Below, piece after piece: positions 51,565 to 55,908 of a stretch of DNA of 59,876 bases; the stretch's first letter is position 1; each line of letters opens with the position of its first letter. The DNA is from Euzebyales bacterium. Its GTDB lineage: Bacteria; Actinomycetota; Nitriliruptoria; Euzebyales; JAHELV01. Made by a program: the position numbers and the translations under genes. The stretch spans positions 1 through 59,876 of the forward strand of contig DATHVN010000158.1 of NCBI GenBank assembly GCA_035461305.1, in the 5' to 3' direction. A model generated the notes under the pieces. That model did no database searches and had not been told where the DNA came from. It saw only the letters and a program-made list of their open reading frames with translations.

Positions 51565-52281
51565 TCACGCAGCGTCGTGGGATGGGATGTCGCCCGACAG
51601 CAGCCTGCGCAGCAGCCAAGGCTGGCGCTTGAGCAGCTGGGCGATGGGCGGGGGTTCGGGCGGCTCGAACCGGGACGCACGTGGCGGGTCGGGCCACACG
51701 AACGGCAGATCGACGACCTGGCCAGGACGCGTGGCGGTACGGAGGACATCGAGCGCGGCCCGGAGCACGGCCATCTGTCCGGCACGGTCGCCGGGCATAC
51801 CGAGCGGAACGCCACACGGGTACTCGATCGCCGCGACGCGTGGCGCACCGGCCGCGGCCGTGAAGTCCGGCACCATCGACAATGACACGGTGGCGATCCC
51901 CGCCGCTTCGATCACCAGCGCGGCCAGCCCCACGGACCGGCAGCAGAACGGTCACACGGGGACGAGGACGGCGACGTCGACGCCCTCCGCAACCATCGAC
52001 CGTGCGATCGCCGGCGCGGTCGCCTCGACCAGCTCGGCAGCCTGCAGCAGGAATCCCATGATCGAGTAGTGCGAAGGTGCGACTCCGCCGAGGAGGATGA
52101 CGTGCTCCCCGACCTCGGCAGGTCCGATGGCCAACCGTGTTGTCGAACACGACGGGTCCGACGTAGCCGCGATCGTCATGCCCAGGGCGCCCGAGCGCAC
52201 GAGGTACACGTTGGTCTGGGTGCGCCCCCACGGTCCAGCGCAGTACACATCCGGCGCGACCTTGGCGACGCGTGTACGCAC
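51565..52281 (-). CDS. GrdB-like (glycine/sarcosine/betaine reductase selenoprotein B family) protein with in-frame UGA; chimeric N-terminus
   Basis: Reading the TGA at 51952-51954 as selenocysteine gives one 238-residue frame. Residues 1-31 (VRTRVAKVAPDVYCAGPWGR then TQTNVYLVRSG) resemble the start of a metallo-beta-lactamase fold protein. From about residue 57 it is a GrdB-like protein: GGVAPSHYSIMGFLLQAAEL, DVAVLVPV-Sec110-PFCCRSVGL, IEAAGIATVSLSM, and IEYPCGVPLGMPGDRAGQM to VDLPFVWPDPP. Relatives carry Cys or Sec at this spot, making a UxxC/CxxC redox pair. The first half of the family domain is missing. GTG 52281 has GAAAGG at good spacing. Possibly a recent fusion; expression unproven. 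Confidence 0.65.
51923..51941 (-). promoter_or_regulatory. Candidate bacterial SECIS element
   Basis: Starting ten bases after the in-frame UGA, GCCGGTCC and GGGCTGGC pair over eight positions (two G-U) around a GTG loop. The distance from UGA to the loop is 18 bases and the loop starts with G, as in bacterial SECIS hairpins recognised by SelB. Found by hand folding only. Confidence 0.55.
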
Positions 52282-52563: not shown

Positions 52564-53136
52564 ATGCTCGGCGATCGGCAACCGACGACCACCGTCGGCC
52601 ACTTCGTCAGATCGGCGGTGACAACGGCGCAGTTGGTGGCCGCCGGCCAGCTGTCCCAGCCGACCACCCACCTCGCGCGTCCACTCCGCTTCGCCGACGG
52701 CACGATGTCGTACGTGTTCCGGGAGACCGCTGCCGACGGCGTCGCCACGGCCGATCCAGCCGTGCTCGTCGTGCGGTTCAGCCTCCGCATGGTCGGCACC
52801 AGCCCGTGGTTGCACGCGGCGTTCCGGCGGGAGTGCGTGCTGCACACGCCGTTGTTCGCCGGCTTTCCCGGGTTCCGGTCGAAGCTGTGGCTGACGGACC
52901 TGCAGACCGGCGTGTACCGCGGGCTGTACGAGTGGAACAGGGCCGACCTGGCCTCCGACTACGCCGAGACGCTTGCACAACTGCTCCGAGTCGTATCCGT
53001 GCAGCGGTCGGTCAGCCACCACGTCGTGGCCGGCGTCCGGCGCGATGCGCTGCTACGTGACCCGACGCTGGTCACTGATGGCCCCGCGTGGTCGCGCCTG
53101 ATCCCTCCCGAGCCGACGCAGGCGCAGAGCGCATGA
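52564..53136 (+). CDS. Conserved hypothetical protein coupled to a flavin monooxygenase
   Basis: 190 residues. The central block PLFAGFPGFRSKLWLTDLQT then GVYRGLYEWN, and later SVSHHVVAGVRRDALL, look conserved, but I do not recognise an enzyme family; it has the look of a small alpha/beta barrel or cyclase-like protein. ATG at 52564 has GAGGAGG ideally placed. Its TGA overlaps the next ATG by four bases (ATGA), so it is made together with the monooxygenase and may act on the same compound. Confidence 0.7.
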   Translation: MLGDRQPTTTVGHFVRSAVTTAQLVAAGQLSQPTTHLARPLRFADGTMSYVFRETAADGVATADPAVLVVRFSLRMVGTSPWLHAAFRRECVLHTPLFAGFPGFRSKLWLTDLQTGVYRGLYEWNRADLASDYAETLAQLLRVVSVQRSVSHHVVAGVRRDALLRDPTLVTDGPAWSRLIPPEPTQAQSA

Positions 53137-54764
53137 TGGGCGGCTCAGCCGACGTGCTGATCGTGGGCGCAGGCCCCACAGGTCTCGCACTGGCCGCCCA
53201 GCTCGTCGCGTTCGGCGCGACCGTGCGGATCGTCGACCGCCGTCCGACACCGTCCCGGCCCTCACGGGCACTCGTCGTACAGCCGCGCACGCTGGAGATG
53301 CTCCGTCCCATCGGCGTCACCCCCGCACTCGTCGCGCGGGGAGAGACGACGGCAGCCGCGCGCCTGCACCTCGGCGGCCGCGAGGTGACGGTCGCCATGC
53401 ACGACGCAGGTCTGCGCGACACGCCGTACCCGTTCCTGCTCATCCTGCGCCAGGCCGAGACGGAGGCCGTCCTGCGCGACCACCTGCGAGACCGCGCACT
53501 CATCGTCGACTGGGGGACGGAGTACCTGTCCAGCCGGATGGAACACTCGGGCGTCGAGGCCGTGCTGCGCCACAGCGACGGCGTCGAGGAGCACGTGGAC
53601 GTCGGCTTCGTCGCAGGTTGCGACGGCGCGGACAGCGCCGTGCGGCGCGGCGTCGGCATCGACTTCGTGGGCGCGGCGTACCGCCAGTCGGTGGTGCTCG
53701 CGGACGTGGTGATCGATGCCAAGCTCTCGGCCGAACCAGTGCACGCATTCGTCAGTCCCCATGGCGGACTCGTGCTGTTCGCCGGCGGGGAGCACGCACC
53801 GTGGCGGGTCGTCCTGATCCGCGGCCGACGATCGCGCGAGGCCGGCGCGCTCGACGCCGACGGTCTGCGCTCACAGGTCGCGACGGTCACCGCGGGCCGA
53901 GTGGTGGTGCGGGACGTCGCATGGATCACCGACATCCCGCAGCAGCACCGGCTGGCCAGCACCTTCCGGTCGGGACGGGTCGTCCTCGCCGGCGACGCCG
54001 CCCACGTGCACAGCCCGGCGGGCGCGCGGGGCATGAACACGGGGATCCAGGACGCGTGCAACCTCGGCTGGAAGCTCGGGCTGGTCATCGGTGGCCGAGG
54101 CGACGAGGCTCTGCTCGACACGTACGACGCCGAACGCCGCCCCGCGGCACGCATGTCGATGCTCCTGACCCATCTGATCTTCTTCGGGGAGGCAGCCGAC
54201 CATCCCGTCCTCGAGCGCGCCCGCGCCGCGCTCGCACCACTCATCGTTCCCGCGGCGGTCCGGCTGTCGTGGCCGCGGCGGTACGCATTGCACACGATCG
54301 GCCAACTCCGCGTCCGGTACCCCCGCGGCGCGCTGGCGATCGAAGGGCGGCCGAGGCCGCGTGACGGTCCGCGCGCCGGGTCCCGGATGCCCGACGCGCG
54401 GTTGATCCGTGGTCGCACGCCCTGCCGACTGCACGATGCGTTGGCGACGCCGCGATTCCACCTGCTGCTGTGCGGGCCACCGAAGTGCTGGAGCCGCTCG
54501 CAGATCTCCGCGATGCGCCAGCGGTTCGACGGCGTCGTGGACGTCCACGAGATCGGCGCCGAGGCCGGCGTCGACGCGCTACACGACCCGAGCGGTGAGC
54601 TGCTGCACCAGCTGGGCGCGCGCCCGAGTGCGCAGTACCTGGTCCGGCCGGACGGCCACGTCGCCTACCGGAGCGCGGGCGCCGACCTCGGCCCCGTCGT
54701 GGGGCACCTCGCACGGTGGCTGCCGGGGGCCGTCAGTCAGGGGCGTCCCATCGCGTACGACTGA
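53133..54764 (+). CDS. FAD-dependent aromatic/polyketide-type monooxygenase
   Basis: Class A flavoprotein hydroxylase of 543 residues. FAD dinucleotide motif DVLIVGAGPTGLALAAQLVA at the N-terminus, DG motif GCDGADSAVRRGVG near residue 165, and GRVVLAGDAAHVHSPAGARG then MNTGIQDACNLGWKL around residue 285. The C-terminal thioredoxin-like domain (from about 420) ends LVRPDGHVAYRS, as in phenol hydroxylase and pentachlorophenol or rifampicin monooxygenase relatives. Uses NAD(P)H and O2; substrate unknown. ATG at 53133, coupled to the upstream gene. Confidence 0.9.
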   Translation: MMGGSADVLIVGAGPTGLALAAQLVAFGATVRIVDRRPTPSRPSRALVVQPRTLEMLRPIGVTPALVARGETTAAARLHLGGREVTVAMHDAGLRDTPYPFLLILRQAETEAVLRDHLRDRALIVDWGTEYLSSRMEHSGVEAVLRHSDGVEEHVDVGFVAGCDGADSAVRRGVGIDFVGAAYRQSVVLADVVIDAKLSAEPVHAFVSPHGGLVLFAGGEHAPWRVVLIRGRRSREAGALDADGLRSQVATVTAGRVVVRDVAWITDIPQQHRLASTFRSGRVVLAGDAAHVHSPAGARGMNTGIQDACNLGWKLGLVIGGRGDEALLDTYDAERRPAARMSMLLTHLIFFGEAADHPVLERARAALAPLIVPAAVRLSWPRRYALHTIGQLRVRYPRGALAIEGRPRPRDGPRAGSRMPDARLIRGRTPCRLHDALATPRFHLLLCGPPKCWSRSQISAMRQRFDGVVDVHEIGAEAGVDALHDPSGELLHQLGARPSAQYLVRPDGHVAYRSAGADLGPVVGHLARWLPGAVSQGRPIAYD

Positions 54765-54812
54765 ACGGGCACACGAACGCACGCGCCCGGACGGGAGCAG
54801 GCCCGGATCCCC

Positions 54813-55908
54813 TCAGGCGCGGATCTCGCGCAGTCGGCCGTGCGCACGGGCCGCGCCTGGCCGCTCGGTGTTCAGTCGTCGGCGCGCACGCCGCCAGATC
54901 GTCCCAGCGGCGTGGTCGGACACCAGCAGCGCAGCGCCGTCGACCAGCAGATGCTGCGGCCGCTCGATACCCGTCAACAGGTCGACGACCTCGCCCTCGC
55001 CGGAGATCGGCGCGGTCACGACACGGCCGACGTGCCACAGCGCGACCACGAGCTGGTCGGCATCGAACGGGTTGACGACGATCGACGTCGGCGTCGCACC
55101 GATGGGTTCGAACATGACGTGCGGTGGCTCGAGGTGTCGTGACAGCGTGCCTCGTCACCGCCGAACGCCGCGACCGGTTCCCGATCGCCGACGCACGCTG
55201 GCCAGCCGTAGTCGGCGCCGGCGGTCACGCGGTTGATCTCGTCGGGCGCGGACGATCCGCCGGTGGGCTCGGCGACCTCGGTCGTCCACCGCTGCCCGCC
55301 CGCGGTGAAGGTGTGGGGCGTAGGCGTTCTTCAGGCCCGATGCCAACCGCTCGGGCGCGGCCGGGTCGGCGGGGTCGAGGATCCACAGCGCGCCGGAACC
55401 CTCGACCGCGCCGCGTCGCGCTCGCGACCACTGGTCTCGTACAGCAGCCGGCCGTCGGGGGTGCGGTCAGGGTTCCCTGCGAACGGCCGTTGTTCGGTAG
55501 GCCCTCGACGGCGGTCGACGAGTGCGACGGTCGTCGTCTTCGGCACGCAGCACGCTCGTGGGCGTCGCGATCCACAGACCGCCGTCGAGCCAGGCGATGC
55601 CGGTCGGCTTGTCGAGCCCGTCGACGAGGACGTCCAGCTCACCCGAGTCCCGGTCGACGGCCACCACCTGGCCGGTGCCGGCGTTCTCGCCGCCGACGAG
55701 CTGCGCGACCCACAGGCGGTCGTCGGGACCGACGATCATCTGCGTCGGGCCCTCCAGTCCGGACACCAGCCGGTCGACGCGGACCTGCGCCCCGACGCCG
55801 ACCACGCCCTCTGACGCGCCGCCTGCTGCACGACCACCGTCACCGGTCAAATGCCGAGCAGGCGGCGACGAGAACGGCGGGCAGACACAGCAGCAGCAGC
55901 GGAGGCAT
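54813..55908 (-). pseudogene. Decayed PQQ/sorbosone-type sugar dehydrogenase lipoprotein
   Basis: Starts ATG 55908 with a lipoprotein signal (MPPLLLLCLPAVLVAACS), then stops after four codons. The beta-propeller body appears in pieces: VDRLVSGLEGPTQMIVGPDD, VDGLDKPTGIAWLDGGLWIA, then LPNNGRSQGTLTRTPDG, INRVTAGADYGWPACVGDRE, and finally FEPIGATPTSIVVNPFDADQ to SDHAAGTIWRRARRR. These sit in three frames with at least five breaks. The glucose/sorbosone dehydrogenase signature YGWPACVG identifies the family. Not functional. Confidence 0.82.

Follow-up and report, generated by a model that had tools for sequence, protein, structure and literature searches.

A very likely selenocysteine codon in a PrdB-like gene that appears to be an MBL-PrdB chimera

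In this work, we ask whether an interrupted minus-strand frame, 52281-51565 of the window (the whole analysed stretch of 59,876 nucleotides), encodes a selenocysteine (Sec) protein, and what kind of protein would result. As the first-pass annotation had described, the TGA at 51954-51952 (codon 110) is the sole interruption of this frame. Ordinary annotation would miss a Sec codon at such a place, and the gene would be called as truncated by a stop or as two short genes. The frame opens with GTG, five bases downstream of a possible ribosome-binding site, AAAGGTG. The features discussed below are as follows.

51565..52281, minus strand: predicted chimeric open reading frame, 238 residues long if the UGA at codon 110 is decoded as Sec; start GTG 52281-52279, final stop TGA 51567-51565
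51952..51954, minus strand: in-frame UGA, very likely the Sec codon of the P-V-U-P-F-C motif (UxxC), from homologue comparison
51923..51941, minus strand: bacterial SECIS-like hairpin, 8 bp, loop GUG, stem 51941-51934 with 51930-51923, from comparative pairing
51568..52095, minus strand: PrdB-like C-terminal part, residues 63-238, covering TIGR04483 positions 101-233 of 238 and the tail PWLLRRLLSGDIP
52093..52281, minus strand: residues 1-62(63), MBL-fold metallo-hydrolase-like start (GPWGRTQTNVYLVR), from sequence similarity

Comparison with homologues speaks clearly about codon 110. We compared 58 distinct homologous sequences; 52 carry TGA there and the remaining six TGC (Cys), and none was found with neither residue. 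Scored separately against a profile built from 35 relatives, residues 63-109 gave 49 bits and residues 111-238 gave 107 bits, so that the PrdB-like family similarity really crosses the UGA, as had been claimed for both of its sides. The accompanying view of the whole frame as a family member holds for residues 63-238, while residues 1-62 lie outside the PrdB-like family. A homologue with UGA is present in 27 of 150 related genomes, and selA accompanies it in 26 of these 27 versus 79 of the 123 others (Fisher p 3e-4); the sole genome with such a homologue and no selA is an assembly of 80% completeness.

The genome to which the window belongs (4.24 Mb, 98% complete, a draft in 237 contigs with a contamination estimate of 4.1%) holds the whole set of genes that the first-pass annotation had suggested looking for, selA, selB, selC and selD. 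We found a tRNA-Sec with UCA anticodon (70 bits), SelA (465 bits) and SelB (332 bits) on one contig, and SelD (348 bits). The SelD gene (L018, G000:C186:660-1574) itself carries an in-frame UGA in its active site, HGAGUACK, and a hairpin directly downstream, which may be taken as a hint from the genome itself that it decodes UGA as Sec.

In the window gene the UGA is followed by 10 nt and then by GCCGGUCC-GUG-GGGCUGGC, a hairpin lying 11-29 nt past the codon. The loop opens with a G at +19, at a distance of 18 nt from the UGA. The bSECIS model calls for a G within the first two positions of the apical loop, 16-37 nt from the UGA (PMC13188914), and the window hairpin fits it in having the loop G first, a spacing of 18 nt and a covarying 8-bp stem. 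The fold energy, computed for a single GC-rich sequence, is ordinary (z = -1.18 vs shuffles). Among 30 UGA homologues 87% of cells are paired in the same register, and six of the eight pairs have changed on both sides; the covariation score of 0.385 compares with 0.167 in shuffles, controls that leave shared ancestry in, and was reached by 0 of 500 shuffles and by none of the slid registers. RNAalifold recovered the same helix independently. Pairing drops to 62.5% of cells in the six Cys homologues, and a larger set likewise gave lower pairing in Cys than in UGA homologues (Mann-Whitney p 1.5e-4). The hairpin proposed from the window alone is thus borne out as an element kept in register by compensatory changes and degraded where Cys replaces Sec. 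All 52 sequences with UGA have the loop G, but the 6 Cys sequences have it too, and by itself it therefore does not tell the two groups apart. Rfam RF00031 (SECIS_1) had no match in this genome, and none in the control genomes either, which makes it uninformative here.

On these comparisons, TGA 51954-51952 is very likely a Sec codon, and its decoding as Sec is very well supported at the level of sequence. In the cell, a ribosome arriving at the UGA would meet SelB, carrying Sec-tRNA-Sec and bound to the downstream hairpin, and Sec would be inserted at the redox position of the UxxC pair. Two homologues, L041 (G140:C4:547675-548100) and L115 (G170:C19:14663-15352), carry an additional in-frame UGA where the resolving cysteine would lie (U-P-I-U-H), possibly making a double-Sec UxxU motif. 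The hairpin seen in other members is weaker in these two, and a different stem, CGCGCU-CGUGC-AGCGCG, begins its loop 17 nt after the second UGA.

The protein had been assigned to a GrdB-like family, and PrdB proved to be closer. Residues 63-195 match positions 101-233 of the PrdB model TIGR04483 (NCBIfam) with an E-value of 8.7e-23 and 81 bits, versus 1.4e-5 or weaker for models of GrdB type; TIGR01917 reached 18.9 bits of 602, and PF07355 (GrdB) did not match the window gene. We therefore read residues 63-238, clearly on sequence grounds, as PrdB-like, within the GrdB superfamily and a known family of UxxC selenoproteins. Descriptions of UxxC selenoproteins of this PrdB kind go back to the survey of the Sargasso Sea (PMC1088965, PMC2398784). 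With TIGR04483 and its environmental relatives (PMC1088965, PMC2398784, PMC13188914) the window gene shares the Sec of UxxC in the same alignment column, the SECIS-like hairpin downstream and the existence of Cys homologues. It differs from them in lacking about 100 N-terminal positions, in scoring under the equivalog cut-off and in having no PrdA in the genome, and it differs from clostridial PrdB in an extra C-terminal tail of about 40 residues, PWLLRRLLSGDIP, common to the window gene and its homologues in genomes G105 and G002. Selenoprotein B of GrdB and of betaine and sarcosine reductase (TIGR01917, NF040794, NF040795, PF07355) shows distant homology of the C-terminal domain around UxxC (E 1e-5 to 1e-3); this match is far weaker than that of PrdB, and the window gene is half the length.

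The first 62 residues tell a different story, one that the first-pass annotation had missed. Good relatives carry about 100-130 residues ahead of the HYSxMG motif. This N-terminal half of prdB (~100 residues) was found in none of the six frames of the window, a frameshifted upstream copy included, nor elsewhere in the genome. In its place, residues 5-63 are 47% identical (E 8e-7) to residues 197-259 of a plasmid-encoded MBL-fold metallo-hydrolase of Rhodococcus aetherivorans, WP_303684545.1. Strong similarity reaches to about residue 32 (GPWGRTQTNVYLVR); it is weak from residue 33 on and stops just before the metal-binding motif HxHxDH (THAHPDH), where the PrdB-like part begins; compared with an MBL-fold hydrolase, the window gene has the first ~60 residues of the fold only and lacks that motif. 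The remainder of the MBL gene was not found in the window, and a genome-wide search returned no second copy of either parent gene. Searches of residues 1-66 or of the window against Pfam, Rfam, PDB sequences and viral contigs were uninformative; the one hit to a PDB sequence (0.0019) is weak and falls into two pieces. Judged by these similarities, the gene is an MBL-PrdB chimera.

Our preferred reading, which we hold to be quite probable as a whole, is that of a Sec codon in a selenoprotein of the PrdB family, followed by a SECIS element, in a gene that became an MBL-prdB chimera by deletion. An MBL-fold hydrolase gene would have supplied the start signal and the first ~60 codons, and a prdB-like gene its last 176 codons, the two meeting in frame at about 52093-52096. 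The chimera was probably made by a deletion, the simplest history being one between adjacent genes of the same orientation, MBL upstream and prdB-like downstream; the Sec codon and SECIS would have been inherited with the prdB part. Among the fetched relatives, no MBL gene like that of Rhodococcus was found beside prdB.

On the plus strand of the window, a ydhR-like gene and then a gene for an FAD-binding aromatic hydroxylase occupy 52564-54764. G003, a member of the same genus, also has these two genes as a pair (77% and 76% identical), but among different neighbours. We considered the synteny in G003 as the state before the deletion and rejected it, because the genes preceding the ydhR-like/FAD-monooxygenase pair there are different ones. 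A match of 52 nt in the DNA of G003 was likewise discarded as prdB, since its locus reads as a short-chain dehydrogenase. Further along the window, a minus-strand gene at 54579-55850, beta-propeller and sugar-dehydrogenase-like (weak GSDH and SGL matches), seems to run over two alternating frames as if through several frameshifts.

Whether the chimera makes a working protein is a separate matter. With roughly half of the PrdB-like domain missing, the product would be a relic of recent origin or else a redox protein in shortened form, and the original activity has presumably been lost. The missing N-terminal half together with the MBL fragment means that a working selenoenzyme should not be assumed, and an intact one is unlikely. 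We give even odds to a relic, in which Sec codon and SECIS were inherited and no functional protein is made, and to some residual function; the relic is a version of the preferred reading and compatible with it. What was lost, ~100 N-terminal residues, includes the first core strand, which has a pLDDT of about 96 in the AlphaFold model of an intact relative. That model has a pTM of 0.79 vs 0.57 for the chimera, in which residues 1-79 are under pLDDT 50, although all these models depend on shallow alignments of 7 sequences only. The MBL stub without its metal motif and the apparently frameshifted gene nearby point the same way, as do the only other N-terminally short members that we noticed, in G040 and G140, which also look broken. 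Against a relic stand 238 codons without frameshift or further stop, the preservation of all 21 positions beyond residue 62 that the family strongly conserves, the intact hairpin, and the start codon with its possible ribosome-binding site. A fold search with the intact homologue returned no convincing solved relative (best E 0.015). More PrdB-like copies, at G140:C4:580770-581473 and G040:C12:136037-136351, look split or short, an apparent decay of extra copies.

We regard it as rather doubtful, though not far-fetched, that the gene encodes a working chimeric selenoprotein in which the MBL-derived N-terminus substitutes for the N-terminal half of the PrdB-like domain. In that case the MBL strand TNVYLVRSG would replace the first core strand of the family, KVALLSTSG.

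It is less probable still that the junction is an assembly artefact, the MBL gene and an intact prdB-like gene lying apart in the organism and the Sec gene itself being intact and real. A draft in so many contigs, with its contamination estimate, leaves some room for this explanation, but the two parts are joined in frame, the junction lies well inside the contig, and the genome-wide search, which found no further piece of either parent, speaks against a misjoin, without being proof. A reading of the TGA as a normal stop, or as a sequencing error in a Cys homologue with TGC or TGT, draws on the six homologues with TGC at this codon and is practically excluded by the UGA counts across homologues from many genomes, with their covarying hairpin, and by the co-occurrence with selA, all Sec genes being present in the genome of the window.

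A true D-proline reductase subunit PrdB partnered with PrdA is equally hard to credit: PrdB is the top NCBIfam model, but the 81 bits here, and the 143-159 bits of intact relatives, which match PrdB over nearly its full length, are below the curated equivalog cut-off of 300 bits, and a search for PrdA that gave 1.5e-167 in Peptoclostridium as a positive control found none in the window's genome, G002 or G105. The absence of PrdA implies that there is no classical D-proline reductase.

Returning to the preferred reading, the kind of selenoprotein is already known, and the unusual part is the odd, possibly degenerate, chimeric 5' end. The comparisons add that PrdB-like proteins, mostly with UGA, are widespread in the phylum of the window (77 of 396 sampled genomes), and that the three genomes tested are without PrdA. 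The chimeric front end calls for caution, as a conserved Sec codon with a SECIS does not by itself imply an intact enzyme. Should the chimera work, this organism, which lacks PrdA, would have a novel and shortened Sec redox protein of PrdB type.
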